From a virus, in the IMG/VR virus record IMGVR_UViG_3300044940_000313, positions 1 to 48,776 of that record: 48,776 nucleotides of DNA, one strand, 5' to 3'. The position numbers and the translations under genes are program-made. Positions 777-48,776 of this stretch are shown in pieces. Position 1 is the stretch's first letter; the number at the start of each line of letters is the position of its first letter. The notes under the pieces are model-generated. The model was not told the origin of the DNA. It did not search any database and worked only from the letters and a program-made list of their open reading frames with translations.

Positions 777-1616
777 CTACGCGCAAATTTTTGCAAGTAA
801 TAGCCGATTTTCTGTTGTTGCAGCAACCCTGGCCTTTTCCGTGCTGACAATTTTTACGCGCTCAAACTCTTTCGAATATGGATAGCAATGCTTTAAGTTA
901 GACATGCTATAAAAAACAATACTAGCACGAATGGCGTTTGGCCCTGTTGGCGCAATCGGTGTAATGCCGTGAACCAGTGACCTGCCGTCAAAAAGCGTCA
1001 ATGCACTACCCCTCTGGCTTAAAGTGACGCCCAGCTCTGGGCAACACAACTCGCCACCGCGTATGTTGTGCTTAACTATCAAAACAGTTGATAGTGCAGA
1101 TTTAAAATTCCCATTATCCCTATGATACTTAATAGCATGATTCACATTTACGTTTATTGTCAGGTATGGCGTGTCATTATAGCGCCAAGATTTGTCCACA
1201 CTTGATGCAATTTCTTCCTTTGCGGCCTTGTAGTGCTCTGGAAAATAACGCTCGTATAAACTAGCAGCATACTCTAGTGCTGTGCTTAAGATAGCAAAAT
1301 TGGAAATTTCTTTTTTTGTTGGAGAAGTGAAGCGACAATAATTATTCATTGTGGAATGTCTAGGCATAACCCCCAGTACGACGCTCTTTGTTGGCAAGCC
1401 CCAAGTCCTATGGTCATTACTAAGTTTGACAGACATTGCAGCTCGTCGAACGTCTTTCATGAGTGAATCCGGCATAAAAAAATAGCCAAGAATTGGCTCG
1501 CCTGCTTCGTATATGATTGTTGGCTTATCTATTAGCTTACCAACTATGCTTGCTGGAGTTTTTTTTATTAAATGGTCAAATGATGCGTCTCGCTTGCTTA
1601 TATATAATTTATCCAT
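777..1616 (-). CDS. JBP/TET-like 2-oxoglutarate/Fe(II) dioxygenase
   Basis: 279 aa. The C-terminal half has the double-stranded beta-helix pattern of the JBP/TET branch of Fe(II)/2-oxoglutarate dioxygenases. An H-x-D metal pair lies at H165/D167 in YHRDNGN, then GGELCCPELGV (187-197), the distal metal ligand H216 in LVHGITP, and a 2-oxoglutarate-binding Arg at R230 in RASIVFY. JBP/TET enzymes hydroxylate the methyl group of thymine or 5-methylcytosine in DNA, so base oxidation is the favoured role, but the substrate is not shown. The next gene upstream is ParB-like (4-nt gap), and a methyltransferase and glycosyltransferase follow. The stop at 777 may be an artefact or a mutation. A second partial copy at the window end lacks one A in an A-run and reads on for about 32 more residues. 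Confidence 0.75.
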   Translation of the reverse strand: MDKLYISKRDASFDHLIKKTPASIVGKLIDKPTIIYEAGEPILGYFFMPDSLMKDVRRAAMSVKLSNDHRTWGLPTKSVVLGVMPRHSTMNNYCRFTSPTKKEISNFAILSTALEYAASLYERYFPEHYKAAKEEIASSVDKSWRYNDTPYLTINVNVNHAIKYHRDNGNFKSALSTVLIVKHNIRGGELCCPELGVTLSQRGSALTLFDGRSLVHGITPIAPTGPNAIRASIVFYSMSNLKHCYPYSKEFERVKIVSTEKARVAATTENRLLLAKICA

Positions 1617-1620
1617 ACTG

Positions 1621-2229
1621 CTAACCTAAAACCATCATCTTAACTGCGTCGCTGTAGTTATCTAGCCCATTATCCTTGCAATACTCATCAAGTTTTCTGG
1701 TAATCTCTGCGTAATCACTTTCATTGTACGTCAAACGCAAAGTCCTAATTTCACTTTCAAGATAAGAAAGTAGCTTATCCGCCTGGTCTTTGTATTTTTT
1801 CTGGTTGCTAAGATTATCCTTTTCAAAGAAATCAACAGTAAAACCGCTGATACCAAGCATATTGATATCAAACTCAGGCCCAAGGTCGCCCAAGTCAGAA
1901 TTGATTCCAGACAAATCTAAACTAGCCCACGCCGCAATCGCATTATCCGATACCTGCGACGCGTACTCCTGCTCCTCACTGTCAAAATCCTGATAAATAA
2001 CTGGCAATTTTTTTAAGCCAAGTTTTTTCGCAGCCTCTAGCCTGCCGTGGCCGCTCACAAGAAAGCCGCTTCTGTTTGACACTACAAGTGGAATTCTGAA
2101 GCCCTGATATTTTATAATTTCGCAAAGTCTATCTATTTGTTCGGTCGAATGAATGTTTCTGTTCTTTGGGTTTGGCTTGATTTCGTTTATATCAACAATT
2201 TCTATTTTCTTACTTTTAATCTCACTCAC
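1621..2229 (-). CDS. ParB-like N-terminal domain protein
   Basis: 202 aa. Residues 8-110 match the ParB/Srx-like fold: an N-terminal strand with 'INEIKPNPKN', a helix, then the ParB box VSGHGRLEAAKKLG at 58-71. No partition partner (ParA) is present. In phages, stand-alone ParB-like domains often sit in DNA methyltransferase or base-modification operons, where they may act as nucleases or nucleotide-binding regulators. Here the gene precedes the JBP/TET-like dioxygenase by 4 nt and is presumably co-transcribed with it. The C-terminal 90 residues are charged, helical and unrecognised. A role in chromosome segregation is unlikely. Confidence 0.7.
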   Translation of the reverse strand: MSEIKSKKIEIVDINEIKPNPKNRNIHSTEQIDRLCEIIKYQGFRIPLVVSNRSGFLVSGHGRLEAAKKLGLKKLPVIYQDFDSEEQEYASQVSDNAIAAWASLDLSGINSDLGDLGPEFDINMLGISGFTVDFFEKDNLSNQKKYKDQADKLLSYLESEIRTLRLTYNESDYAEITRKLDEYCKDNGLDNYSDAVKMMVLG

Positions 2230-2254
2230 GCTGCGCTCCCTCTGCTGTAATCGT

Positions 2255-2330
2255 TGGCTGCGCGGGAAGGATTCGAACCTTCGACCTAGGCATTAACAGT
2301 GCCCTGCTCTACCAACTGAGCTACCACGCA
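2255..2330 (-). tRNA. tRNA-Asn (GUU)
   Basis: On the minus strand a full cloverleaf can be drawn. The acceptor TGCGTGG pairs with CCGCGCA with one G-T pair. The D stem is GCTC/GAGC. The anticodon stem GGGCA/TGCCT encloses the loop CTGTTAA with anticodon GTT. The T arm is GAAGG-TTCGAAT-CCTTC. The discriminator G and an encoded CCA follow. It is the only tRNA seen. It lies inside the modification cluster between the ParB-like gene and a methyltransferase gene. Confidence 0.95.
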
Positions 2331-2372
2331 ATCCTCTAAATAAGATTAGTAATGCATAACAAATAAAGTCAA

Positions 2373-2897
2373 TTAGCTTAGTTCAACAATTAAATCACCG
2401 CAGTCAAGCCGCGCCTCAAGCCCGCATAACTCCTCACAATCACTCTCATGCCACGCCACTCGTTTTATCAAATTAAACCCAGCACGCTCGGCTTGCAGCT
2501 TCATCTCTGAAAAGTCTAAAACGTACTTATGGCCCCACAGAGACAAGCCGTGATTCACCATCTCGCATGGCGTTTCAGGGCTCCAGCCAGGTGACCAGCG
2601 ATTGATTCGACCTGCCGCGTAATCCATCACGATCGTCTCAAGATCAGGGCATGAAATACGCATGATGCCCCCAACTTTAAGCACACGCCTACATTCTTTT
2701 AAAAACAAAAACTGTTCATGCTTTGTTAGATGCTCAATACCATGCTCGCTGTAAATAAAATCAACTGAGCCACTTTCGTGTGGAAGAACGTTTCGTAAAT
2801 CAATGGCAATCACGCCAGGGAACGGCTGCGCGTCGTAATTTATCCAACCTGGCATTGCATGAGGACCACAAAAAAGATTCAGCTTCACTACATTCAT
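2373..2897 (-). CDS. Class I SAM-dependent methyltransferase (small)
   Basis: 174 aa. It begins KLNLFCGPHAMPGWINYD, a variant motif I typical of short predicted SAM methyltransferases, followed by VDFIYSEHGIEHL (motif IV region) and a helix-strand RRVLKVGGIMRISCPD as in Methyltransf_11 proteins. There is no DPPY/SPPY or Pro-Cys motif, so it is more likely a sugar, lipid or small-molecule methylase than a DNA base methylase. It overlaps the upstream glycosyltransferase by ATGA, implying coupled translation and a shared pathway, perhaps methylation of the transferred sugar. Confidence 0.7.
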   Translation of the reverse strand: MNVVKLNLFCGPHAMPGWINYDAQPFPGVIAIDLRNVLPHESGSVDFIYSEHGIEHLTKHEQFLFLKECRRVLKVGGIMRISCPDLETIVMDYAAGRINRWSPGWSPETPCEMVNHGLSLWGHKYVLDFSEMKLQAERAGFNLIKRVAWHESDCEELCGLEARLDCGDLIVELS

Positions 2898-3643
2898 GCT
2901 ATGTGACCACTATTCCTAAGCCAAGTTTCAAAATCTAGGTTTTTTCCAAGCATCACATGATCCCACTTCCACTGCTTATATAGTAAGTCCTCGCCTGGGT
3001 TGAATTTCAATCGCTCATCCTCTGTCCAATCAGGTAGATAAACCCAGCGATACCCCTTTGCACGAATGTGTGGCCACATGGCAATTTCAAGACCGCCATA
3101 AAATTCGTGCGGCTCATTGAACCAACCGGCGTTTTTTATCCACCAACCCTTCCATGCGCAAACCGAATTCACTGCTGGCGTATGAGTTTCTCTAACCCTC
3201 ACCTGAGCTGCCATGCGCTCAGTGAACCCACGAGCGTTTAACTCCGCACTCGTATTCACGCCCCAAAGACTGGCCCACACAGTGCTAGCATCAGCCATCA
3301 GTGCAGTGACCAAAGCCATGTCCCAGCCGCGCTCGCACGGATAACTATCCCCATCGTAGCCAATCACAATGTCATCCTCGGCCAGGCCGTATGTCTGAAG
3401 TGCCCAATTTAGACCGTGATGCAAGCCAAGATTCTTACCTGGACTCATGTACTCACAGCCATTATCTGAAGCGATTTTTTTAATCTGCTCTGACACTCTC
3501 AATTTGTCTGGCAGCGGATAGTGCTGATCAATCATTAAATGAACAAGCGGCAGCCCGCCGTGTTTTGTTTCATGAAATCTTCTAATTGAAAGATCAATAA
3601 TTTCTGGCTTATTGTAGCATAGTGTTACAGCAATGACTCTCAT
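2894..3643 (-). CDS. GT-A fold glycosyltransferase-like protein
   Basis: About 249 aa from the ATG at 3643, which overlaps the previous stop as ATGA; an in-frame codon at 3655 is less likely. MRVIAVTLCYNKPEIIDLSI is a typical GT2 N-terminus, and IVIGYDGDSYP (about residues 92-102) holds the D-x-D metal and nucleotide-sugar motif. A Trp-rich C-terminal half (KGWWIKN, MWPHIRAKGYRW) could bind the acceptor. Neighbours are a lipoprotein upstream and a methyltransferase downstream. Acceptor unknown; candidates are modified DNA bases, virion protein or host surface glycan. Confidence 0.65.
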   Translation of the reverse strand: MRVIAVTLCYNKPEIIDLSIRRFHETKHGGLPLVHLMIDQHYPLPDKLRVSEQIKKIASDNGCEYMSPGKNLGLHHGLNWALQTYGLAEDDIVIGYDGDSYPCERGWDMALVTALMADASTVWASLWGVNTSAELNARGFTERMAAQVRVRETHTPAVNSVCAWKGWWIKNAGWFNEPHEFYGGLEIAMWPHIRAKGYRWVYLPDWTEDERLKFNPGEDLLYKQWKWDHVMLGKNLDFETWLRNSGHIA

Positions 3644-4104
3644 TGCGTACACCACTTAAGAAGTCGCTCCATATCCGCTGGCGATGTGCAGATGTAATTA
3701 GCCATATGTGGCCAAGATAAGAAAAACCCATCATCAATTGGGCTGGCACTATCAGCACACCATGCGCCCTTTTCTTCTGATGCTACAACACAAAACGCAA
3801 AGCGCGTGGGTCGCTTCTCAACACACGCTTTCAAAAGCCGCTCCTCACTCTCGGGATCTATACAAATATAATTATCAGCAGACTCGATCGTTCGGGAGTA
3901 CCCAAGTCGAGCGTTTATCCTTGCATCAAAGCAATCCATTGCAAGCCTCTGCTCATCTCCATCAACTATGCAGCGCTCAACCTTCGGACCTCGTGCGCAG
4001 CCGGACAAGCTAAGAGCCAATACGGCCAACAATACTAACAAGTTTCCTAGCGGCAGCAACACGCTCTGCCGGTGTTTTCGCGTTGCTTGCTGCGTCTGTA
4101 GCAT
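3640..4104 (-). CDS. Cys-rich lipoprotein
   Basis: 154 aa from the ATG at 4104, which has GGAAGGA eight nt upstream. The N-terminus has a basic stretch (TRKHRQS), a hydrophobic core and the lipobox LSGC, so the mature protein would be an exported lipoprotein. The mature part contains about eight further cysteines and two similar blocks (NYICIDPESEERLLKAC and NYICTSPADMERLLKWC), suggesting an internal duplication. The 5' part overlaps the upstream gene by about 95 nt in another frame. It could be an outer-membrane superinfection-exclusion factor or a spanin component. Function not known. Confidence 0.6.
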   Translation of the reverse strand: MLQTQQATRKHRQSVLLPLGNLLVLLAVLALSLSGCARGPKVERCIVDGDEQRLAMDCFDARINARLGYSRTIESADNYICIDPESEERLLKACVEKRPTRFAFCVVASEEKGAWCADSASPIDDGFFLSWPHMANYICTSPADMERLLKWCTQ

Positions 4105-4222
4105 CTTCGATTTCCTTCCACATGCCATCTTTTTTCATTTTCTGAATCGTAGCCCCCCATGAGTTAATCATCTTGATTAACTCAGGGAGAGCCTGGAGAA
4201 ACGCCACAATAGCTTGAAGCAT
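4010..4222 (-). CDS. Small helical phage protein, 70 aa
   Basis: 70 aa: an N-terminal hydrophobic stretch (LQAIVAFLQALPELIKMI) followed by an amphipathic helical tail ending in AERVAAARKLVSIVGRIGS. It resembles short proteins often found beside holins in phage lysis regions. It lies three nt after its upstream neighbour stops, and its own end is overlapped by the lipoprotein gene. I do not recognise a defined family. A minor lysis or virion role is a guess from context. Confidence 0.5.
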   Translation of the reverse strand: MLQAIVAFLQALPELIKMINSWGATIQKMKKDGMWKEIEDATDAASNAKTPAERVAAARKLVSIVGRIGS

Positions 4223-4825: not shown

Positions 4826-5425
4826 TTATAGCTTATCTAAGCGTCTTGCAGGATTACCAACCCAAACCTGCTTCTCTGGCACGTCCTTTGTGACAACCGC
4901 CCCCATGCCAACCGTTGCCCCATCGCCAACAGAAACCCCCTCGCGAAGAGCGGCGTTCGTTCCAATGTAGCAACACATTCCAATCGTGCATCGGCCAGAA
5001 ATATTCGCGCCAGGGCTTATTGTTGTAAACATGTCAACTGTTGTATCATGCCCAATCGTGGCTGCGAGATTCACAATAACACCGCGCCCAATTCGGACAT
5101 CCGTCGTTAGCACAGCCATCGGACAAATAATCACGCCAGGCTCAAGAATTACCTGATGCCCAAGCACCGCACTCGGATGCACTACTGCATCTGCTGGAAT
5201 TAATCCGCAGCCAAGCGCGTATGACCACAGCTTGTTTTTCGTAGCCGGATCACCAACTGCCACAATAAAGCGCTTGCCCTCAAGGCCGCCAAGGCTACCA
5301 AGCACCCGAACGGGACCAGCACTCTGTCCACCGCCATCTTGATACATCGCTTCAACCCTGTGGCCAGCATCTTCGGCCCAACACATTGCTTCCCTAGCAA
5401 AGCCGCCAGCACCAAGAATAATCAC
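4826..5425 (-). CDS. PglD/NeuD-type sugar O/N-acyltransferase
   Basis: 199 aa, starting at a GTG that overlaps the aminotransferase stop as GTGA. The N-terminal Rossmann-like half begins IILGAGGFAREAMCWAED, as in PglD and NeuD. From about residue 85 a left-handed beta-helix of hexapeptide repeats follows (VVHPSAVLGHQVILEPGVII, ISGRCTIG, VSVGDGATVGMGAVV), ending VWVGNPARRLDKL. Known relatives transfer acetyl from acetyl-CoA to a UDP- or dTDP-linked amino sugar. Direct coupling to a DegT-type aminotransferase strongly suggests N-acylation of the amine that enzyme installs. Confidence 0.85.
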   Translation of the reverse strand: MIILGAGGFAREAMCWAEDAGHRVEAMYQDGGGQSAGPVRVLGSLGGLEGKRFIVAVGDPATKNKLWSYALGCGLIPADAVVHPSAVLGHQVILEPGVIICPMAVLTTDVRIGRGVIVNLAATIGHDTTVDMFTTISPGANISGRCTIGMCCYIGTNAALREGVSVGDGATVGMGAVVTKDVPEKQVWVGNPARRLDKL

Positions 5426-6510
5426 TTTACACCTGCCGAATTATTACTTGCCGACTCGATTATGAAATCAATTACCATATCCGCCTGCCTTTGATTGACA
5501 TCGCTCGGCAGCGCCGCGCAGGTTTTAAAAAACTTTGATGATTTACCTACACGCAGAACCTGCGACAAAGCTGGCATTTCCGTCAAAGGAATATAATAGC
5601 GCCTAACCGTGATCCCACGCTTTATACCGTCTTGCTCCAATTTCGTAGCATTTAAGCCAGAAACCACAGAAAGACTCGGTGCTGCCCCGCCATGATGCAA
5701 AGTGTGAGGAGTACAAAACCCATCAAGCCTAGCTTGATAATAATCAATCAACGCACTCTTAGCCGACACACGCTTTTTCACGCGCTCGATGTCATCAAGG
5801 TGAGCCAGCAGCACCGCGCACGTCAATTCCGAAACTTTAAGATTGTCCGCATAGATTGATTGAATAAGCCGATCCGGACCAGTAGCAAAATTCATTAAAC
5901 GCCTAGCCAAATTAGCTTCTTTTTCACTACTGAAAACAACCAAGCCCCCCTCACCGCATGGCATTGACTTCGTCGCATGTAGTGAGTAGCAGCGCGTGTT
6001 TTCCGTACCCTGCGTATCCATTAAAAAGCCGCCAGCCAGGTCATAAACGACATGCAAGCCATAACGCTCGCAAAGCCGATCATAAAAAGTAAAATTAACT
6101 CTGTACCCAAAAGGAGATACGACAACCACTGCCTGGCAACTCTTCGCTGCCGCAGTAATACTCTCTTCACTCAAAGTCCAGGTTCTCTCATCACAAGAGC
6201 CGAAAACCGGCACCATACCAGCAGCCACAACAGCGTGTAGCGTTCCAACATGCGTGAAATCAGGAATTAACACACGGGAGCCGCGCCTAAGCCTTGCCTG
6301 CAATGCCAAACGTATAGCTGACGCCCCAGAACTACTAATTAGCCAATACCCGCCGCCATACTCGCATGACAACCTGCGCGTGGCTTCATCGTAGCAAGGA
6401 CCAAAGTTAGAAAGCTGCCCCGCCACAAGGGACTTTCTATAATGCTCCCACACCTTGTTTCGAGTCGGGAATATTGGCTTGATTAATGGAATAGCGTCGC
6501 CTGTTATCAT
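5422..6510 (-). CDS. DegT/DnrJ/EryC1-type nucleotide-sugar aminotransferase
   Basis: 362 aa. It begins IPLIKPIFPTRN, with SSSGASAIRLAL (59-70) forming the phosphate-binding turn and D157 in VVYDLAGGF contacting the PLP ring nitrogen. K181 in SLHATKSMPCGEGG is the Schiff-base lysine of the family. These enzymes move an amino group from glutamate to a keto sugar bound to dTDP or UDP. The likely substrate is the 4-keto-6-deoxy sugar made by RmlB (31171-32100), possibly after RmlC. Its ATG overlaps the upstream membrane protein by ATGA and its end overlaps the acyltransferase. Confidence 0.88.
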   Translation of the reverse strand: MITGDAIPLIKPIFPTRNKVWEHYRKSLVAGQLSNFGPCYDEATRRLSCEYGGGYWLISSSGASAIRLALQARLRRGSRVLIPDFTHVGTLHAVVAAGMVPVFGSCDERTWTLSEESITAAAKSCQAVVVVSPFGYRVNFTFYDRLCERYGLHVVYDLAGGFLMDTQGTENTRCYSLHATKSMPCGEGGLVVFSSEKEANLARRLMNFATGPDRLIQSIYADNLKVSELTCAVLLAHLDDIERVKKRVSAKSALIDYYQARLDGFCTPHTLHHGGAAPSLSVVSGLNATKLEQDGIKRGITVRRYYIPLTEMPALSQVLRVGKSSKFFKTCAALPSDVNQRQADMVIDFIIESASNNSAGVK

Positions 6511-29109: not shown

Positions 29110-30634
29110 ATTGTCCCCCCCCGAATACACTATTTTGCTGCATAGCTGCTTGCTTTGCTAGCATCTGCTCATTGCTAAGTGGAGTCATTCCTATTTTTTC
29201 CCTAACGGTGTTAAGGTCCTGACTGTCATTCATGTCAATTGCGCCAATATTTACAGCGCGCTCTATTGCGCCTAGCTCTTTTTCAATTTCGTCTTGAGTC
29301 AGCGTGCGCTTACTAAAATCACCTAGCCCGTATTCGGCCCATGACTCCATTGGAAAGTTATATGCAATGATTTGCTTAATTAATTGCGTAAGAATACTTT
29401 GCTTCAAGCCTTCAAGCATACCGTCACAGATTTTATCAAACGTCTTGGCGTGCTCCTGGCCGAGAGCGTATGCGCCACTACCGTCACCGCCCATGAAGAT
29501 GAGTGATGGAATCAATAGCGCACGCATGATTGATTTATTGCACAGCTCGATTGCTTGAATGAAATCTCCAGCGTTTGACGCCTGCTGAATTTGCTCAATT
29601 CCGTACACGTCATCCTTACGGCCTGGGAGAATGATCGTCGTATCATTGTGAATGTTGCGGAACAAATGACTAGCCGCGACGTCTGCCCTGATGCCTCTGT
29701 CCCTTCGTCCACGATTGTCTTCGCCAGTGTACTTGTTAGAGTCAAGCACGGTCTTCTGGCCATCGGCGTAAACAATCAAAAGCGGCGTACCCTTTCGGTC
29801 AAGGGCAGTGGCCATCATATTTAAAATTGCATCTTTCAATACATAATACTTGTACGCTCGTCTTAGAAGACTGCGACCATATGGAGACGCAAACTTCCCC
29901 TGCGCATCAAATGCGTAATGCAGGCACTTATCGCGTGGAATTCTAATCGCCAAATAGCTGTAGACATTCGCTGTTCTAAGCGGATAAGGGAAGTCGCCCA
30001 ATTTCGCAAACGGATCTGGCCTAACGGGCTGGCTTTGTAGCCCGCTTGCCGTATTAAAGCCGAAGAGGTATGCAACACCGCCAGAGAGAGCTGGGTTGTA
30101 GTTTCTTTGATACTGAAGAATACCGTCACTTGTGATCTCGCCAGTTCGCTCTGTTTCAAATAGCAAAGTCGATGGCGGAAGTGGGACCATCTTCTTTGGC
30201 ATAAAACCTTTTGAGTTGTTCTCCCACACAATTTCTTGAACAGCGAACCCTGCCCATGTTGCTGATAACAATTCTTTCACAACATTGTAGAACCCGCCTT
30301 CAATGTTCTGTAAAGCCTTGTTTACAAAGTCAGTGACTTCTTTACTCGGATGCTGATAAATCCCAAGCCTTGATGATAAAGCAGTGGTTAAAAAATCAAT
30401 GCCAGAGCCGATTGTGTCATCGGTATCAATCATGCGTTTGAATGTTTCAACGCTAACGGAACTGGGGTTCTGAATGAATCTGTAGAATTGATTGTAAAGT
30501 GCTGGGATTGGCGTCCCACGCTGTGATTTTAAGTCTTCTAAACTTTTTAATTCCGCTCTACGAGCATAGAGCGTTTCGTCAAGCATCGGATCGGTCGTCT
30601 CAAGATTCTCGTTGTAATCTATGTAGCTGCTCAT
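29039..30634 (-). CDS. Portal protein (Mu gp29/DUF935-like)
   Basis: 531 aa from the ATG at 30634, with AAGGAG five nt upstream; a more upstream codon at 30655 lies inside RmlC without a site. Portal features: LYNQFYRFIQNPSSVSVETF, LSATWAGFAVQEIVWEN, a central ALDRKGTPLLIVYADG and the long C-terminal helix region (QAIELCNKSIMRALLIPSL). It forms the dodecameric DNA entry ring. Its 5' end overlaps RmlC by 35 nt and its 3' end overlaps the next gene. Confidence 0.85.
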   Translation of the reverse strand: MSSYIDYNENLETTDPMLDETLYARRAELKSLEDLKSQRGTPIPALYNQFYRFIQNPSSVSVETFKRMIDTDDTIGSGIDFLTTALSSRLGIYQHPSKEVTDFVNKALQNIEGGFYNVVKELLSATWAGFAVQEIVWENNSKGFMPKKMVPLPPSTLLFETERTGEITSDGILQYQRNYNPALSGGVAYLFGFNTASGLQSQPVRPDPFAKLGDFPYPLRTANVYSYLAIRIPRDKCLHYAFDAQGKFASPYGRSLLRRAYKYYVLKDAILNMMATALDRKGTPLLIVYADGQKTVLDSNKYTGEDNRGRRDRGIRADVAASHLFRNIHNDTTIILPGRKDDVYGIEQIQQASNAGDFIQAIELCNKSIMRALLIPSLIFMGGDGSGAYALGQEHAKTFDKICDGMLEGLKQSILTQLIKQIIAYNFPMESWAEYGLGDFSKRTLTQDEIEKELGAIERAVNIGAIDMNDSQDLNTVREKIGMTPLSNEQMLAKQAAMQQNSVFGGGQYAGSEADQSGAVQGQENFNLRSF

Positions 30635-31184
30635 ATCGCTCCTTGATTTCACCAATGCTCGGCAATGACATGTCTTTTGTTGATACTATTGGAACAAAAT
30701 CCTTTGAAAAAGGCCACTCAATACCGATCTCTGGGTCATTCCACAGCACGCCGCCATCGCTTTCTTTGTCGTAGAGCGTCGTACAGAGATAATTCAGTAT
30801 GGCCACACTTGATGCTGTGTAGAAGCCGTGCGCGACGCCTGGCGGTATGTATATCGCTTGCGGCTGCTTCCATGTGAGCCATATCCCATCCCACTTTCCA
30901 AAAGTCTTAGAGCCATACCTTAAATCAACAAACGCATCGTAGATCGTCCCATACACACAGCGCACTAGCTTACCTTGTGGATTATTCGACTGAATGTGCA
31001 TTCCGCGTAATACGCCACTAAAGCTCACTGACTCATTTGCTTGCTTGAATTCCGTTTCAATACCCAACGCGGCAAACTTACCAGCGTTGAATGTCTCCAT
31101 AAACTGGCCACGCTCGTCCTGGTAGCTATCAAGATCAATGACGACTACGCCTTCAATTAAGCACTGCAATTCACTTTTTTTCAT
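30600..31184 (-). CDS. rmlC: dTDP-4-dehydrorhamnose 3,5-epimerase (RmlC)
   Basis: 194 aa, full length for RmlC. It shows the cupin pattern YQDERGQFMETF, ESVSFSGVLRGMHIQ (H63), GKLVRCVYGTIYDAFVDLR (K72), IYIPPGVAHGF (H119), the catalytic tyrosine Y132 and VLWNDPEIGIEWP. It epimerises dTDP-4-keto-6-deoxyglucose at C3 and C5. Overlaps RmlB by 14 nt and the portal by 35 nt, so it is translated within the structural operon. RmlA and RmlD are not in the window. Confidence 0.9.
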   Translation of the reverse strand: MKKSELQCLIEGVVVIDLDSYQDERGQFMETFNAGKFAALGIETEFKQANESVSFSGVLRGMHIQSNNPQGKLVRCVYGTIYDAFVDLRYGSKTFGKWDGIWLTWKQPQAIYIPPGVAHGFYTASSVAILNYLCTTLYDKESDGGVLWNDPEIGIEWPFSKDFVPIVSTKDMSLPSIGEIKERYEQLHRLQRES

Positions 31185-32100
31185 AATACTTGATTGTCTT
31201 TCTAAGGTTGTCCTTAAACAATTCTGGGGATGGCTTCCAACCCATAGCCATAAGTTTTTGTGGATTTACTTCATAGATTTTATCATCAGTCGGTCGGTCG
31301 TTTGTGTGAATGACGTTTGGTCTTTGGTATCCTAGCTCATCTTCCATGATGCTCATGATCTCTCTAATCACTTCAATGTTTTTCTTAACACATAGGCCGC
31401 CAATGACATAACGCTGCTCATGGCCGCTTGACATGATTTTGATTAACGCATCTACGTGGTCGCCAACCCAAAGCCAGTCCCTCATGTGCTCACCGCTTCC
31501 GTGAATTCTGATAACGCCGTTTGTTAGGTAAGCGTTAATCGTCATCGGAATCAGTTTTTCTGTATGCTGATGCGGCCCGAAGTTATTTGAACAATTCGTG
31601 ACTGTAACTGATAAGCCGTAAGTTTCGCGATAACTTAGCGCGATATGGTCTGACGCTGCTTTACTAGCAGCGTACGGGCTTCTTGGCGCGTATGGCGTGC
31701 TTTCTGTAAACGCCCCGTTGATTGCCTCACCGAAAACCTCATCGGTGCTAACGTGGATAATTCGTGCTCCAGGTACGAGTTTTCTAGCAGCTTCCATGAC
31801 GTTTGCCGTGCCTTGAATGTTTGTCTCAAAAAACTCGCTTGGATCAATAATGCTACGGCATACATGGCTTTGCGCTGCTAGGTGAAATACTACATGTGGC
31901 TTAAATTGAGCCATGCTTTTGTAGACATCGTTTTTGTTTTTAATATCAACAAAGCGCCACGGCATATTATTTATGTTGCTAGTATTTGCACCAACATCAT
32001 GGCTGTCCCACGCTTCGACTTCCATTTGCTGCATCATTCGTAGCTTGTTGTAGAGATGACTCCCTATAAAGCCCAGCGCTCCTGTAACAACTATTCGCAT
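31171..32100 (-). CDS. rmlB: dTDP-glucose 4,6-dehydratase (RmlB)
   Basis: 309 aa, an SDR fold: VTGALGFIG (NAD-binding G7, G10, G13), HVSTDEVFGE (catalytic T118-D119-E120), SPYAASKAASDH (Y142, K146) and TNCSNNFGPHQHTEKLIP, all diagnostic of RmlB. It converts dTDP-glucose to dTDP-4-keto-6-deoxyglucose. It needs dTDP-glucose from the host. Located between terminase and portal, with AAGGA seven nt before the ATG. Likely feeds the aminotransferase at 5422-6510. Confidence 0.9.
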   Translation of the reverse strand: MRIVVTGALGFIGSHLYNKLRMMQQMEVEAWDSHDVGANTSNINNMPWRFVDIKNKNDVYKSMAQFKPHVVFHLAAQSHVCRSIIDPSEFFETNIQGTANVMEAARKLVPGARIIHVSTDEVFGEAINGAFTESTPYAPRSPYAASKAASDHIALSYRETYGLSVTVTNCSNNFGPHQHTEKLIPMTINAYLTNGVIRIHGSGEHMRDWLWVGDHVDALIKIMSSGHEQRYVIGGLCVKKNIEVIREIMSIMEDELGYQRPNVIHTNDRPTDDKIYEVNPQKLMAMGWKPSPELFKDNLRKTIKYYEKK

Positions 32101-38663: not shown

Positions 38664-39175
38664 ATTTTAAAACCCAACTTTTCTGGAATGTTGGCCACAG
38701 CAATCTCCGTAAATTCTAGCTTTTCTGATGGTACCTTGTGGGCTTCAATGTGCCAATACAAAGCGTCGTCTACGGGTATAATGCCGCCTTTATCGGCTCG
38801 CCCCGTGCCGTGCAGCATATCTAAAAGTGTTTTTATTCTATTATCAATATCCATCGTCAGGCTTGCTTTGTTTTTTTTTGTTACAAACCTAGGGCTATGA
38901 AAGCATATACAAATTGCAAGCGGCGATTTTTCAATAGTCGGTAAGCAGTCCCTGGCGAGCGATCGGCGGTTAGTGTCTATATAGTTTTGATACTCCTTTG
39001 ATCTTATTTTTGATCCGTAGCGACCACGACGTGGAATCCATGCGTGGTTCGCCGAAGGCGGTAGGCCGCTAATGACAGTTATCAAAACAATGCCAGACCT
39101 ATAATGCTCAATAAATTTTAATGCATGAGCACTAGGCTCCCACAAGTCCACGAATGATTTCTTCTCTTTTGTCAT
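38660..39175 (-). CDS. RusA-like Holliday junction resolvase
   Basis: 171 aa. The RusA pattern is present: LPPSANHAW (39-47) at the N-terminus, TMDIDNRIKTLLDMLHGTG with two of the metal-binding aspartates, and IIPVDDALYWHIEAHKV with the third. It resolves branched DNA after replication or recombination, probably with Bet. It starts inside the glycosyltransferase gene (44-nt overlap) without a clear ribosome site, so the true start may be slightly downstream. Confidence 0.85.
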   Translation of the reverse strand: MTKEKKSFVDLWEPSAHALKFIEHYRSGIVLITVISGLPPSANHAWIPRRGRYGSKIRSKEYQNYIDTNRRSLARDCLPTIEKSPLAICICFHSPRFVTKKNKASLTMDIDNRIKTLLDMLHGTGRADKGGIIPVDDALYWHIEAHKVPSEKLEFTEIAVANIPEKLGFKI

Positions 39176-40160
39176 TTGCGTCTGACACGATTCGGTAACA
39201 CTTCCTAGATTCCCTGGCTTCTCTAACCTTCGCGTTTACCTGCTCATCGCTCATTTCTGCGACTTTCATTATTTTTTCATAAAATGAGCCCTGTTTATAT
39301 TCGTAATTCAATGTCGCTGGGTTTGACCACTCCGTCATGTTTGGCCCAATGCAAAGAGAGCCAGCCCAAAGCCCTTCAAGGTAGGCAATGTCAGACTTGC
39401 AGTTATTAAAGTAATTGCTTGCTAGTGGAACTAGCATACACTTTGGCTGCAATTGCTTAAGCGTGTAGAAGTAATCCAAAATGTCTATTGCGCCAAATAT
39501 TTCCATGTTTTTAGTAGCTTGTTTTTTAAGCCGCCACGGCACATCGCCTTGAAAATAAAAAGTGTGGTCACTTAAATCACTTGCAGCGTTTAGAATGTCC
39601 TGAATCCACAGCTCAACATCTTCATTATGAGTTGCCGAACCGCGCCAGCAGAATAGTTTGTTTCTTTTTTTCGGCAGCAAAGGCATCTCAGGTATAATGT
39701 GTGTTGGCAGTGCGTTTCTTATAACTTCACACCTTTTCGCAAGTGGACCGGTCGGAGCATCTTGCAGCGCAGCACGCAGTGGCTCTGTGCTAACGGTTAC
39801 AACGTCTGACTTTGCTATTATTGTTGCAATTATTTTTCTAGTCTTATCATTTGAGTATGTTGCGTGGGCTGGGTTTGATTCCGGCACGCTGAATAGGTCA
39901 TCATCGTAGTCAACCCAGACGGGCTTGTTTTGTCTCTTAGCTAGTTCTAGCATTGTCAGATGATCTTCCTTGTACGGCCTTTGCATGAAAAGAATATCGC
40001 AGCTTGCGGCAACCACTGGCCAAGAGACCGAGCTTGGCTCCATTACTTCAATGTTCAGATTATCGCGCCTTGTCAGCTCCGAAAGAGGCCCAATGCTTCT
40101 GTAGAAACTTGTGGCATCGTTTCGGTTCGGTATAATTGATAAAATTCTTATTTTTTTCAT
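39132..40160 (-). CDS. GT4-like glycosyltransferase
   Basis: 342 aa, a GT-B fold. It starts KIRILSIIPNRNDATSFYRSI; the acceptor domain follows, then VIRNALP (about 145-151) and LFCWRGSATHNEDVEL. The C-terminal donor domain has LVPLASNYFNNCKSDIAYLEGLWAGSLCIGPNM, the E-x7-like sugar-nucleotide signature of GT4. It could transfer the amino-dideoxy sugar predicted from RmlB/RmlC and the aminotransferase. Acceptor unknown. Overlaps RusA. Confidence 0.72.
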   Translation of the reverse strand: MKKIRILSIIPNRNDATSFYRSIGPLSELTRRDNLNIEVMEPSSVSWPVVAASCDILFMQRPYKEDHLTMLELAKRQNKPVWVDYDDDLFSVPESNPAHATYSNDKTRKIIATIIAKSDVVTVSTEPLRAALQDAPTGPLAKRCEVIRNALPTHIIPEMPLLPKKRNKLFCWRGSATHNEDVELWIQDILNAASDLSDHTFYFQGDVPWRLKKQATKNMEIFGAIDILDYFYTLKQLQPKCMLVPLASNYFNNCKSDIAYLEGLWAGSLCIGPNMTEWSNPATLNYEYKQGSFYEKIMKVAEMSDEQVNAKVREARESRKCYRIVSDANDKREEIIRGLVGA

Positions 40161-41802: not shown

Positions 41803-43527
41803 ATGCACCCCAGACTTATCAATCAATTATTTGAAAACCCAGAATTTTTAATTGATGAACAATCTCTAGGTTACTTGGTGAGAGATATCATCAACATGAA
41901 TTGGTGGAACACAGCAGGCTACCTGCTTGGTTATAAGAAAAACAAAAGAGTCAGTGGAAAGTTTACAGAAACACAAAAACGAATAGCTGTTCAGCTAAAG
42001 GAATATTATCGCTACAGAACAATAGCAACAAAAGATCATGATAAGTTTGTTAATGAAATAAGAGGCTACATAAGCGGGAACATCTCTTCGCTTAATCAGC
42101 TAGGCGCATACTCGATGCGCGCTAGGGCAAACCCAAGCCAATTCTTTCATACCCCTGAAGGCGAGATGACTTGGGTTGATTGCACATCGAGAGCGACGTA
42201 TGCGGCAAAGTACGTTTTTCAAAACGGCTATATTGATTTTGATGGAGTGTGTCGACTTATTGGCTGCCGTGATGTCGTAAACGCAATTGATTCAGGTAAC
42301 TGCTTTGATCTTGGAATCAAAGATTATTTTGTTGAGGGAGATAATTCAGTCAAAAAAGAGATTTTCTCTCAAAAAAATGATCAACTGAGCGTCAAAGAGT
42401 GGGTTGATAAATTAAACATAAAACCAATAAACGAAAGACTTTGGCTTCTCGACGCAATAGGTCACGTCAGAACAGATCCGTTTAAAAAATATGAAGCGAA
42501 ACTCGTTTCGGCAGGTCTCGCAAAGGGAGTAAATGAATGTCTTTATGGATTTAAAACTTCTGCCAGTTTTGACAGTTCCGACATTTCAACTCGTGTAAGC
42601 AGCGCAAGTCATGCAAGCCGATCAAGCAATGCAAGCCGCGAAAGCCATGCAAGCCGCGAAAGCCGATCAAGCCATGCGAGCAATGTAAGCAGTGCAAGCA
42701 ATGCAAGCCGCGCAAGTGACGCAAGCCGCGCAAGCAGCGTGAGCGATGCGACGCATGAAAGCAGTGCAAGCCGCGCAAGCAATGCAAGCCGCGCAAGCAG
42801 TGCAAGTGGCGCAAGCGAAGCAAGCAGTGCAACTGATGCAGGCTGTACAACATTTAATGGGTTTAGCTGGGCAATGTGTGATGCAGCTATTACAAAGCCC
42901 GAAGGGCTTGAGTATCCTAAAGTATTCAGAAAAAACATTTTCGCGATAGCTGGCAATTGGAAGATAGACAAATCAGTTACATCACTTTGCAAAATAGCTT
43001 GGTTTGATCCTTTTTCGGGACACGGCACTACACCACTTTATTGTAAGCGTTATGGCATTAAGTATCTTGGCTTCGACACGAACAAGCGAGCGTTTGATGA
43101 ATATTTAAATATAATAAATGATGAACTGATCAATGCTCCTGGACCATCAGTGAAAGTTGTCAACACTGACTCAACTATCTTCTATGAAGATTTAGTAAAT
43201 TCATTTGATCTATGCTACACATCTCCGCCATATTTTGATTTCGAAGAGTACGGCGGGAATACTGCTCACTTCGCTGGTTGCGAAACATACATGGACTTCC
43301 ACAACAAAATAACAATCCCCGTTTTCACTAACGTCTACAAATATCTCGTGGACGGGGGAACACTTGCATTACAGCTTGAAAAGAACAAAGCAGCAGTTGA
43401 GCTGTGGAAGAGTGTCATTCAAAAAATAGGCTTCAAGCTAGTTGATGAAAAAATCACTGGACAAGAAAAGAATAAATACTCAACACTAAGCAAGCGCGAT
43501 CAAAGCCTAGTTCTTTTCACAAAATGA
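41803..43527 (+). CDS. DNA methyltransferase (SPPY type) with Ala-Ser-x repeat linker
   Basis: 574 aa, on the plus strand unlike nearly all others. The N-terminal 255 residues are unrecognised and could hold the target-recognition domain. A low-complexity Ala-Ser-x tripeptide repeat occupies about 267-346. The catalytic domain follows: FDPFSGHGTT (401-410, SAM-binding motif I) and TSPPYFDF (473-480, motif IV). TSPPY is typical of N4-cytosine and some N6-adenine methylases. Recognition specificity is not readable. Two paralogous Imm5-like genes lie just downstream. It may be a self-protection methylase against host restriction. Confidence 0.75.
   Translation: MHPRLINQLFENPEFLIDEQSLGYLVRDIINMNWWNTAGYLLGYKKNKRVSGKFTETQKRIAVQLKEYYRYRTIATKDHDKFVNEIRGYISGNISSLNQLGAYSMRARANPSQFFHTPEGEMTWVDCTSRATYAAKYVFQNGYIDFDGVCRLIGCRDVVNAIDSGNCFDLGIKDYFVEGDNSVKKEIFSQKNDQLSVKEWVDKLNIKPINERLWLLDAIGHVRTDPFKKYEAKLVSAGLAKGVNECLYGFKTSASFDSSDISTRVSSASHASRSSNASRESHASRESRSSHASNVSSASNASRASDASRASSVSDATHESSASRASNASRASSASGASEASSATDAGCTTFNGFSWAMCDAAITKPEGLEYPKVFRKNIFAIAGNWKIDKSVTSLCKIAWFDPFSGHGTTPLYCKRYGIKYLGFDTNKRAFDEYLNIINDELINAPGPSVKVVNTDSTIFYEDLVNSFDLCYTSPPYFDFEEYGGNTAHFAGCETYMDFHNKITIPVFTNVYKYLVDGGTLALQLEKNKAAVELWKSVIQKIGFKLVDEKITGQEKNKYSTLSKRDQSLVLFTK
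42601..42840 (+). repeat. 9-bp tandem repeat encoding Ala-Ser-x
   Basis: About 27 imperfect 9-bp units of the form GCA AGC NNN, in frame inside the methyltransferase gene. The third codon is mostly AAT, CGC, AGT or CAT, giving Asn, Arg, Ser or His. The array separates the N-terminal region from the catalytic domain and could expand or contract by slippage. It is coding, with no spacers, so it is not a CRISPR array. Confidence 0.85.
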
Positions 43528-44115
43528 ATTCGTGTTATTTTTTGAATCTCTTTCAAGAATTTTTACAGCTTTTCTGATTAAACGAAGCTCAAGTTTGTCT
43601 CGATTATAAGATGCTCTAAGTGCATCATCAATTGCATAGTATGCGTTATTTTCTGATTTGTTAATCGGCTCTTCAGCCACTGCCGCAGCCCAAGCTGCTG
43701 AATTTCCAGCAGTGGCAGCATCTTTAAGTTCATGCGAATTAGTATACATGCATATATTATCTGCTTGTAAATGAGTATAGTACGATATTCCTCTGACGAA
43801 ATCATAATAATTTATAACTTTACCAGTTTCCGCAAAATGATTAGCAACATTTATTGCAATACGCGCTATTTGATTTTTCTTCGCTTTTTTTTCAAAGATG
43901 CTTAACACTGATTTCGCAGCGTAAGCAGCAATTTCTGCGCGCTGACGATGATTCATCATTTTTATGTACATTAAACGAGCTTCAACTGAATCATCTTCGT
44001 TTAATGTTGTCAGCGTTTTTAACAAATCTTCGCTTCCGTATTTTTCATACCAATCAAGAATATCTTTGCTTAAATTAAATGATTGCAGCATTTCTTTATT
44101 AATTTTAATCGACAT
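43507..44115 (-). CDS. Imm5-like protein, copy 1
   Basis: 202 aa with GGAG six nt before the ATG. The first 100 residues (MSIKINKEMLQSF, WYEKYGSEDLLKTLTTLNE, RQRAEIAAYAAKSVLSIFEKK) parallel the protein at 44423-45082, and both end in KILERD-type sequence. The helical, Ala-rich build with A/x-LP-I-E and 'RKAIEAA'-like segments resembles the putative immunity (Imm5-like) family. Its 3' end overlaps the methyltransferase 3' end by 21 nt (convergent genes). Function unknown; immunity to a toxin or inhibition of a host system is conceivable. Confidence 0.6.
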   Translation of the reverse strand: MSIKINKEMLQSFNLSKDILDWYEKYGSEDLLKTLTTLNEDDSVEARLMYIKMMNHRQRAEIAAYAAKSVLSIFEKKAKKNQIARIAINVANHFAETGKVINYYDFVRGISYYTHLQADNICMYTNSHELKDAATAGNSAAWAAAVAEEPINKSENNAYYAIDDALRASYNRDKLELRLIRKAVKILERDSKNNTNSFCEKN

Positions 44116-44422: not shown

Positions 44423-45082
44423 TCATGCATTATCTCTTTCGAGTATTCGCACTGCTTCATTGATTATATTTAACTCAGTTTGTTTTTGGTTTTCTGAAGC
44501 ATCAGCGGCACTAGCAGCACTAGCAGCAGCAGAAGCGACAGTGGCAGCAGCAGCGTAAGCAGCATCGGCACTAGTAGCGCAAGCAGAAGCAGCAGCATCA
44601 GCGGCGGCAGCGGCAGCGTAGGCAGCAGCAGAAGCGACAGTGGCAGCAGCAGCGTAAGCAGCATCGGCACTAGTAGCGCAATCAGCATCGTAAGCAGCAG
44701 CGGCACTAGCATCAGCGGCGTAAGAAGCGGCAGCGGCAACGTAAACAGCAGCAGCATCAGCAACAGCGTAAGCATCAGCAGTACCAGTTTTTAAATAGCA
44801 CTTAGCTGCTTCAATTGCTTTTCTAACTCTTTTATCGTTTGGGTACATTATTTCATAAATTGGTAGCACTAGCTCTGCTGAGTAAATGGCAATTTCTACA
44901 CATTGCTTTTTATTCATCATACGAGTAAATAGCCAGCGCGCCCATGTTTGGTTGTATTCATTTAAATCTATCAATGTTTTTAATAGATCCTCACTGCCAT
45001 GCTCGTCGTACCAAGACAAGCCCCTTTCGCACGGCTTTTGTGGAAGCGACATTAGTATTTCTTTGTTTATTTTAATTGGCAT
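44423..45082 (-). CDS. Imm5-like protein with poly-Ala region, copy 2
   Basis: 219 aa from the ATG at 45082, six nt after AAGAAG; the ATG at 45088 has no room for a site. The N-terminal 100 residues (MPIKINKEIL, WYDEHGSEDLLKTLIDLNE, CVEIAIYSAELVLPIYE, RKAIEAAKCYLKTG) match the Imm5-like pattern and copy 1. Residues of about 105-195 are an extreme Ala/Ser/Asp/Tyr region with a 33-residue tandem repeat, then NEAVRILERDNA. The Ala tract could be one long helix or a tract that has expanded by slippage. Confidence 0.6.
   Translation of the reverse strand: MPIKINKEILMSLPQKPCERGLSWYDEHGSEDLLKTLIDLNEYNQTWARWLFTRMMNKKQCVEIAIYSAELVLPIYEIMYPNDKRVRKAIEAAKCYLKTGTADAYAVADAAAVYVAAAASYAADASAAAAYDADCATSADAAYAAAATVASAAAYAAAAAADAAASACATSADAAYAAAATVASAAASAASAADASENQKQTELNIINEAVRILERDNA
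44523..44681 (-). repeat. 60-bp direct repeat with 99-bp period
   Basis: 44523-44582 and 44622-44681 are identical over 60 bp, offset by 99 bp (33 codons), inside the poly-Ala part of the Imm5-like copy 2. The period is a multiple of three, so the reading frame is kept. Confidence 0.85.
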
Positions 45083-45093
45083 AATCATCTTCT

Positions 45094-47397: not shown

Positions 47398-47871
47398 TTA
47401 ATTTACTAATTTGCTGTAGCTTTGTTTCAACACGTTTAAACGCTCTAGCATTTCGTGTATTGGTTTTAATTCGTAGTTCCTAACTAACACCTCACCTGAT
47501 AGCCGCACGCCCGTTTGAGGCGAATCTTGCGATAATTTTACCCATCCCTGTAGCGTCACCTGACGGCCAACCACTTCACAACAAAGCCAAGCCTTATTAC
47601 TCAAGTAATCATTCGGAATGTAGAGATTTCCGTTTCGAGAGACGCCAACCACGATGCCGTGATACAAGTCGCCAATCTCTTTGTGGCTTGGACCAAGAAT
47701 CACACCAACATCTAAAAGTTTACCAGCGCTCATTTCAGCCATAATCTGCTGCTTTATATTCATCATTCGTACATTGCTTGGCTGACCAGCGAAACGTTTC
47801 TCCCACACAATTCTCGTCAACGCTTGACTCTCGCACCAACGCATCTGCTCATCACTTAATATGTATTTCAT
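47398..47871 (-). CDS. Hypothetical early protein, 157 aa
   Basis: 157 aa from the ATG at 47871 (MKYILSDEQMRWCESQALT); upstream in-frame codons to 47931 lie in the palindromic regulatory DNA and look non-coding. A helical N-terminus is followed by beta strands (GIVVGVSRNGNLYIPNDYLS, GRQVTLQGWVKL). No family recognised. The N-terminal part is repeated at window bases 1-145 as another allele. Probably the first or second early gene. Confidence 0.65.
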   Translation of the reverse strand: MKYILSDEQMRWCESQALTRIVWEKRFAGQPSNVRMMNIKQQIMAEMSAGKLLDVGVILGPSHKEIGDLYHGIVVGVSRNGNLYIPNDYLSNKAWLCCEVVGRQVTLQGWVKLSQDSPQTGVRLSGEVLVRNYELKPIHEMLERLNVLKQSYSKLVN

Positions 47872-47914
47872 TATTTCGTTAAACTCGTAAAAAAAAAAGC
47901 AATACACTACCCAT

Positions 47915-47933
47915 ACACATGCATAATGCATGT
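47915..47933. promoter_or_regulatory. 19-bp perfect palindrome, operator candidate
   Basis: CACATGCATAATGCATGTG reads the same on both strands apart from its central base. It lies about 44 bp upstream of the early gene start at 47871 and just after the winged-helix gene's stop. On the leftward strand a ten-base T-run lies about 17 nt beyond the palindrome, so a poor terminator is an alternative. Likely a repressor or activator site. Confidence 0.5.
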
Positions 47934-47967
47934 GCTCAACTCCACTCTCTCTGTAAAAAAATAGCTG

Positions 47968-48456
47968 CTAAATAATAAATGAACGCTTAAACCAGTTTTG
48001 TAGCTCTGGATTCTGGCTTATTGCCTGCTTCCAAGAAATATATTTAGCCTCTTGTTCAAAATTATTCTTGTTACACGTAACGTGGTTTACTGCTTTTTCT
48101 GTTTTTGGCTTACTCAGGTTTACTGCTTTTTTAGAGCCAAAAAAAACAGACTTCCACGATATGTTTTTCCAACTACCTTGAGCCTTGGCAGCGCGCTCTT
48201 TTTCTGTAAGGTAATTGTCTGGTATTTCGTACTTATTACTTTGCCCGCGCTTGCCCTTGTGGACAATGATCATTCCCATAGCTTTTAATTTTGTGAGTCT
48301 ACGAATCACGGTTACATGACTGCACCCAGCCAATTGCGCAATTCTTTTAATGCTCGGGAAGCATCGTGGAAAATGTGATTTGATTGCTGAATAAACAGCT
48401 TGAGTATATGGATCAGACCCCAACATAGCAGTTGGAGTCATTACAAACATACTCAT
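47968..48456 (-). CDS. Winged-helix replication-initiation-type protein
   Basis: 162 aa from the ATG at 48456, five nt after GGAGG; the GTG at 48462 overlaps that site. Residues of about 15-70 (AVYSAIKSHFPRCFPSIKRI, LAGCSHVTVIRRLTKLKAMGMIIV) form a winged helix (HTH_36 type), as in phage replication O/DnaA-like or repressor proteins. The C-terminal half is basic with several Trp and a 'KNISWKSVFF' segment. It is the most upstream early gene. It is absent from the other allele at 146-700. Confidence 0.65.
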   Translation of the reverse strand: MSMFVMTPTAMLGSDPYTQAVYSAIKSHFPRCFPSIKRIAQLAGCSHVTVIRRLTKLKAMGMIIVHKGKRGQSNKYEIPDNYLTEKERAAKAQGSWKNISWKSVFFGSKKAVNLSKPKTEKAVNHVTCNKNNFEQEAKYISWKQAISQNPELQNWFKRSFII

Positions 48457-48462
48457 TTGCAC

Positions 48463-48553
48463 CTCCTATAAATTTAAAAAATATTATGTTGCATTTTAAT
48501 AAAAACATTTATACAACTGTAGTTGTCATTACAAAAGTACTCATGTACCTTTT
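48463..48553. promoter_or_regulatory. AT-rich regulatory region of early genes
   Basis: This stretch holds inverted repeats ACAACT-GT-AGTTGT (about 48512-48525) and AAAGTAC-TCAT-GTACC (about 48533-48546) ahead of the winged-helix gene. It is strongly A+T-rich, as expected of an early promoter or origin. No ideal -35/-10 pair is visible; TTGTAA-type and TATAAA-type boxes are weak. Confidence 0.4.
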
Positions 48554-48606
48554 ACCCCCAGCAGTCCAGGCTTAAAAGCTAAAAGCTGCTGGGGGTATTT
48601 TTTTTT
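48554..48606 (+). terminator. Intrinsic terminator, plus strand (second copy)
   Basis: 11-bp stem ACCCCCAGCAG / CTGCTGGGGGT (48554-48564 with 48586-48596), then A and nine T. Equivalent to 664-716, but with compensating stem changes and a different loop containing an inner AGCTTTT-type fold. Ends rightward transcription before the leftward dioxygenase gene. Confidence 0.7.
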
Positions 48607-48776
48607 CTGCTTATCTTTTCGATCAAACTGTTATAGCCTTCGAGCCCTATTTTTTTAATCAAAGCACTACGCGCAATTTTTGCAAGTAATAGCCGATTTT
48701 CTGTTGTTGCAGCAACCCTGGCCTTTTCCGTGCTGACAATTTTTACGCGCTCAAACTCTTTCGAATATGGATAGCA
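48579..48776 (-). CDS. Second copy of the dioxygenase gene, 3' part only
   Basis: A minus-strand frame enters from the window edge and matches the 3' end of the 777-1616 gene at base level. It lacks one A where that copy has three, so its frame continues past KIA through RSALIKKIGLEGYNSLIEKISRKK to TAG at 48579, inside the terminator. It therefore shows a longer C-terminus, which looks like genuine protein. Interpreted as the genome end overlapping itself. Confidence 0.7.
   Translation of the reverse strand, partial: CYPYSKEFERVKIVSTEKARVAATTENRLLLAKIARSALIKKIGLEGYNSLIEKISRKKNTPSSF

Follow-up and report, generated by a model that had tools for sequence, protein, structure and literature searches.

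The stretch of DNA analyzed here is the IMG/VR virus record IMGVR_UViG_3300044940_000313 over its full length of 48,776 bases (hereafter the window), which carries the portal, terminase, sheath, and baseplate genes of a contractile-tailed phage. On its minus strand, a ParB-like gene and a gene for a dioxygenase of the TET/JBP type, separated by 4 bases, form an operon running from 2229 to 777. A tRNA gene, a small methyltransferase gene, and a putative glycosyltransferase gene lie upstream of this operon (Table 1). The original prediction, made from the letters of the window, had grouped all five in a cluster read as a candidate DNA hypermodification pathway, in which a base oxidized by the dioxygenase is subsequently glycosylated. 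Our analysis supports the first part of this proposal and narrows it to the two-gene ParB–TET operon, which is the functional unit of the locus.

Table 1 Features of the ParB–TET locus and its upstream neighbors in the window.
Feature	Position	Strand	Basis
TET/JBP-type Fe(II)/2-oxoglutarate DNA dioxygenase, 279 residues	777..1616	-	PF12851, invariant residues, AlphaFold, Foldseek
ParB-like partner, 202 residues: 1-142 ParB core, ~143-202 TET-associated C-terminal tail	1621..2229	-	PF02195, gene pairing, tail hidden Markov model
tRNA-Asn(GTT), between methyltransferase and ParB; outside the conserved unit	2255..2330	-	ARAGORN
Small class-I S-adenosylmethionine-dependent methyltransferase; probably outside the unit	2373..2897	-	PF08241 (Methyltransf_11), E = 1.3e-8
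Putative glycosyltransferase, ATG at 3643, ATGA overlap with upstream open reading frame; probably outside the unit	2894..3655 (3643)	-	Motif only

The dioxygenase matches the Pfam profile PF12851 (Tet_JBP) with 62.2 bits (E = 4.4e-17; cut-off, 34.9). Its iron ligands H165, D167 (as H165-R-D167), and H216 and the 2-oxoglutarate-binding R230, which stand exactly where the original prediction had numbered them, are invariant in alignments of 11, 29, and 26 sequences, each consisting of the window sequence and 10, 28, or 25 relatives. An AlphaFold model based on the 26-sequence alignment, in which the window was combined with viral-contig sequences only, reached a mean predicted local distance difference test score (pLDDT) of 90.6. 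In a Foldseek search with this model, the 26 best PDB matches were fungal CcTet, human TET2, Naegleria TET1 (NgTET1), and CMD1 only; FTO and AlkB followed, and no prolyl hydroxylase appeared among the first 50 matches. The placement among protein or small-molecule hydroxylases that the original prediction had set against its own claim was thus examined by fold, on which a prolyl or small-molecule hydroxylase identity was rejected. The family, fold, and catalytic residues of the enzyme are those of the TET/JBP type, and its predicted activity is the oxidation of a 5-methylpyrimidine in DNA. In the Pfam scan, the 279-residue protein shows the oxygenase domain alone, and the separate base J-binding domain of JBP1 was not found. 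Phage TETs with a clear HxD...H...R pattern (loci L005 and L003, other actinophage records, and PHROG 6059) are labelled 'queuine tRNA-ribosyltransferase', apparently a propagated error.

The neighboring ParB-like protein, also named in the original prediction, matches PF02195 with E = 3.8e-8, and its pairing with TET is nearly invariable among the relatives of the window enzyme. We gathered 149 viral-contig loci with related TETs in two harvests; since this sample is biased to relatives of the window TET, the pairing holds for this family and not for all phage TETs. A ParB-like gene lies directly upstream of TET on the same strand in 74 of 74 and 66 of 66 loci with enough upstream DNA (140/140 in total), in most cases with an overlap of a few bases. 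Among named phages, 8 of the 11 loci with enough upstream DNA have the same pairing; the other three, those of Nonlabens, Caulobacter Cr30, and Synechococcus S-CBWM1, have more distant TETs and no such pairing.

The two parts of the ParB-like protein have different relatives. A hidden Markov model (HMM) made from the C-terminal ~60 residues of TET-adjacent ParBs in the close clade finds 127 of 164 TET-adjacent ParBs, and the window ParB carries this TET-associated tail (E = 2.6e-10). The model matched none of 16 ParBs that are not adjacent to TET, a small comparison set partly picked for likeness to the window core, and none of the remaining open reading frames (ORFs) of the loci. For the core of the window protein (residues 1-142), identity reaches 54-65% with ParB domains of the kind found in N6/N4 methyltransferase fusions (L093-L100; the fused domain of L093 matches PF01555 with E = 2e-35) and stays at or below ~36% with the cores of other TET-adjacent ParBs, except that of L149 (61%). 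The ParB of L013, whose TET is the sister of the window TET, is matched by neither core profile. The DNA-binding helix-turn-helix that follows ParB_N in partition ParBs was not found; Pfam gives ParB_N only, and the C-terminus is the TET-type tail.

On the simplest reading of these comparisons, ParB cores would have been exchanged while the tail stayed with TET. Such an arrangement would fit a subunit that targets TET or loads it onto DNA and docks it through the tail. More specifically, we tentatively consider it possible that ParB is an exchangeable targeting subunit, whose tail docks TET and whose swappable core sets the site, giving a modular, ParB-guided, and possibly site-specific thymine hydroxylation; the window core may then have been replaced by the kind fused to DNA amino-methyltransferases. 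A weak SerK match raised the idea that ParB phosphorylates the hydroxymethyl group, which is disfavored since the nearest relatives of its core are fused to methyltransferases and a separate kinase is present at many loci. Two tandem ParB genes directly upstream of TET were observed in L043, L044, L048, L059, L061, L065, and L081.

Genes that would decorate the oxidized base in the related loci sit directly downstream of TET and often overlap it. In the first harvest (92 loci), ADDT (amino acid:DNA transferase, PF18724) is found behind TET in 40 loci, often alongside a P-loop kinase (29) and a DAO-type flavin adenine dinucleotide (FAD) enzyme (13) or a pyridoxal phosphate (PLP) enzyme (11). 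Alternative sets contain the TET-associated glycosyltransferase (TAGT; 7 loci), glycosyltransferase-like proteins of other kinds (8 and 4 loci), or an FkbM methyltransferase (4 loci); the Pfam names of these clusters were checked on representatives, and one glycosyltransferase-like cluster, which has no Pfam match, was labelled from its sequence. The closely related ParB–TET pairs of L031, L047, and L069 are followed by a glycosyltransferase, by ADDT with a PLP enzyme, and by another glycosyltransferase-like protein, respectively. The simplest reading of such different sets beside close TETs is that one common hydroxymethyl base is finished in various ways.

In the tree, the window TET is the sister of the L013 TET (46-49% identity; SH-like approximate likelihood ratio test, 99) inside a fully supported clade of ~80 loci. 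No ADDT, kinase, or known TET-linked glycosyltransferase lies beside TET in this closest clade; one sub-branch has an FkbM methyltransferase, and in L021 a C5 methyltransferase directly follows TET. For no fewer than 60 of 72 loci, a motif count that gives a lower bound places a terminase-like gene soon after TET, at a median distance of 324 bases and usually with one small terminase-like gene in between. Microbacterium and Mycobacterium phages show this order too. The TETs of the window, read across its join, and of L013 adjoin replication/recombination genes and not terminase. Genome contigs held no relative that would point to prophage hosts of the clade.

The window also allows statements about the phage genome as a whole. 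Its two ends match each other on the same strand (1-141 and 47730-47869 at 97%, 665-887 and 48556-48776 at 96%), while the sequence between these stretches differs and an ORF at 47968-48462 is present in the right copy only. The ends 1-887 and 47730-48776 are two versions of a single region, of which only one has this ORF, and an exact end repeat is absent; in both variants, a GC-rich hairpin followed by a T-run lies on the plus strand just past the 3' end of TET (665-711 and 48555-48600). The contig is one turn of a circular or circularly permuted genome of ~47.8 kb that ends on two variants of one place, and since its ends are homologous, the record is a near-complete, strain-mixed genome. 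In the whole record, neither PF00145 (C5-cytosine methyltransferase) nor PF00303 (thymidylate synthase/hydroxymethylase family) has a match, and since the genome is near-complete, both absences are properties of the phage and not artefacts of a fragment. The original prediction had seen no cytosine-C5 methyltransferase at the locus, which therefore holds genome-wide. PF00145 does not span all conceivable routes to C5-modified cytosine, and a wholly novel one is conceivable in this phage. The sole DNA methyltransferase of the window (41803-43527, plus strand) has SPPY, an amino-methyltransferase motif, instead of the SPPC motif of the newly described cytosine C5-carboxymethyltransferases (PMC12783734). 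This gene, the only long one on the plus strand, contains an insert of ~80 residues with Ser/Ala/His/Arg/Asn-rich repeats (SRASHAS...). The ORFs 43507-44115 and 44423-45088 encode related proteins (PHROG 38757); weak Imm5-like matches are seen for the former, and the latter has a long Ala-rich stretch.

Thymine, host-made 5-methylcytosine (5mC), and a new base had all been named as possible substrates in the original prediction. Since the near-complete genome has neither a C5-cytosine methyltransferase nor a thymidylate-synthase-family hydroxymethylase, thymine is the most likely, though unproven, substrate. It is also the best supported, because the ADDT and kinase of the family act on hydroxymethyl-thymine and because C5 methyltransferases are few in the relatives: PF00145 was found in 7 records of a set of 50 and 4 of a set of 32 (absent from 71 of the 82 related records) and in none of the 11 named phages whose whole genomes were searched. 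ADDT and the kinase reportedly belong to pathways that start from 5-hydroxymethyluracil, according to work by Lee et al. in 2018 and 2022. Host 5mC is kept as a lesser candidate.

Taken as a whole, we consider, with a probability of roughly 0.6, that the ParB–TET operon hydroxylates the 5-methyl group of a pyrimidine, likeliest thymine, with ParB as its partner. We infer that TET, with Fe(II) and 2-oxoglutarate, would act on finished phage DNA and, on its likeliest substrate, would convert thymine to 5-hydroxymethyluracil. The ParB-like protein may bring TET to DNA or to certain sites, with the core handling DNA and the C-terminal tail coupling to TET. The product would probably remain a plain hydroxymethyl base, or else be decorated by an enzyme unrecognized in the window, and the modified base may shield the DNA from host nucleases or mark sites.

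Several points weigh against this interpretation. The kinase and ADDT genes that most directly imply thymine are missing from the closest clade, and the argument crosses from sister clades. The DNA-targeting role of ParB is one that we infer. Host-made 5mC could be the substrate: TET would then convert it within phage DNA to 5-hydroxymethylcytosine, as happens in TET systems that include a C5 methyltransferase. This alternative fits the PF00145 genes of some relatives, including the one right after TET in L021, and the alignment of N170 with N1387, the base-contacting Asn of TET2, a 5mC oxidase. The aligned residue was considered as an indicator of base specificity and rejected as uninformative, since the same residue in a 5mC enzyme does not separate thymine from 5mC. 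However, a C5 methyltransferase is absent from the window genome as well as from most related records and all named phage genomes searched, and the ADDT and kinase partners in the family indicate hydroxymethyl-thymine, so that we regard oxidation of host 5mC as unlikely.

The preferred reading has a further competitor in which ParB–TET marks particular sites, such as the packaging or origin region, and not the whole genome, and the hydroxymethyl base is a signal for terminase or replication. The terminase-like genes that follow TET in the closest clade and in the Microbacterium and Mycobacterium phages are in line with such marking, as are ParB family members elsewhere that work at specific DNA sites. 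Gene adjacency alone is, however, no proof of function, and in the window TET lies far from terminase, with its nearest relative L013 likewise showing no terminase link; we find this explanation doubtful.

Whether the upstream genes glycosylate the base was the second part of the original prediction. In that scheme, the adjacent glycosyltransferase, with the methyltransferase, would decorate the hydroxymethyl base. We considered as its possible donor an amino-sugar made by the RmlB, RmlC, DegT, and VioB-like enzymes of the phage. The tRNA and the small methyltransferase exist as described. The putative glycosyltransferase and METHYLTRANSFERASE, both upstream of ParB and past tRNA-Asn, are tied to another set of genes: an ATGA overlap couples the glycosyltransferase, read from the ATG at 3643, to the ORF 3640-4128, called lysis-region from its position and lipoprotein-like start and not from a profile, and a second such overlap couples the methyltransferase to the glycosyltransferase. 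From this arrangement, the two look like the end of a late operon. The GT-A label rests on a DGD motif after a plausible strand: the ORF has no Pfam, PHROG, or NCBIfam match and no credible PDB-sequence match, searches of phages, viral contigs, and genome contigs gave no relative, and its single-sequence fold prediction (pLDDT 32) gives no fold support. It was consequently rejected as a TET-associated enzyme; with no PF20691 (TAGT) match, it may belong to an unknown family.

Physical closeness to ParB–TET, the TAGT (PF20691) and other types of glycosyltransferases in related loci, and the sugar genes of the phage speak for the glycosylation scheme. So does a weak relative of the window methyltransferase (28%, E = 2.5e-4) directly before ParB in L030, the only such case in 149 loci. 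Nevertheless, eight decorator-family profiles from related TET loci gave no match in the window; recognized decorators lie directly downstream of TET and not upstream past a tRNA; the 116 sampled proteins upstream of ParB are mostly unrelated, with no glycosyltransferase among the 25 families listed; and in the closest clade TET is not directly followed by a glycosyltransferase. A role of these upstream genes in DNA decoration is hence improbable, and this part of the original prediction is not sustained. The sugar genes (4826-6510, 30600-32100, and 39132-40160) encode a VioB/NeuD-like acetyltransferase (PDB VioB, E = 1e-32), a DegT aminotransferase, RmlC, an RmlB-like protein, and a second glycosyltransferase. 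They are likely a dTDP-4-acetamido-sugar route yielding a phage-made amino-sugar, which would more probably be attached to a virion or cell-surface molecule than to DNA. Finally, although the double-stranded β-helix fold is common to many 2-oxoglutarate oxygenases, hydroxylation of a protein or small molecule is most improbable given the Foldseek ranking, and the constant ParB partner and the DNA-modifying neighbors indicate DNA.

Phage TETs supply DNA-modifying chemistry and offer phages an escape from host defences, and the present case cautions that a glycosylation pathway is not readable from gene proximity alone. What exactly ParB domains do beside phage DNA methyltransferases has been stated as unknown (PMC12783734). 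The near-obligatory pairing, the TET-only ParB tail, and the apparent natural core exchange make the ParB question directly testable.

Among known systems, the ParB–TET set of Rhodococcus phage Tonitrus, with ADDT and kinase, may serve to hypermodify thymidine according to PMC11955845. Like this ParB-TET-ADDT/aGPT-Pplase2-5hmU (5-hydroxymethyluracil) kinase cassette, which relatives of Tonitrus share, the window has ParB upstream of TET in one operon and a genome without a C5 methyltransferase. Unlike it, the window has no ADDT, kinase, or FAD/PLP enzymes by the cluster profiles, its TET is ~26-29% identical to those of the cassette, and its ParB core is of another type. The TET-TAGT glycosylation loci (PF20691; Arthrobacter phage Prairie, L031) share the ParB–TET core, whereas their glycosyltransferase is of another family and directly downstream of TET. 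Compared with the 5-hydroxymethylcytosine-type pathway of C5 methyltransferase, TET, and glycosyltransferase, the window has neither PF00145 nor a recognized TET-associated glycosyltransferase. Eukaryotic TET2, NgTET1, CcTet, and CMD1 share the fold and catalytic residues at ~10-14% identity, but the window TET is a single short domain with a ParB partner and likely another substrate.

The closest-clade ParB-TET-terminase loci (L014-L023, L102-L170) have TETs 38-49% identical to that of the window in one supported clade, the same ParB tail, and mostly no decorator, while the window and L013 are not next to terminase and the window ParB core is of the type fused to amino-methyltransferases. Those fusions (PHROG 498-like; L093-L100) share the core, but carry an N6/N4 methyltransferase as their C-terminal half; they lack the TET tail, and no TET was found near them. 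The association of ParB with TET in phages is already known from Tonitrus (PMC11955845) and was reportedly predicted by Iyer et al. in 2013, and the ParB tail together with the apparent core exchange is the most informative new element of the window.

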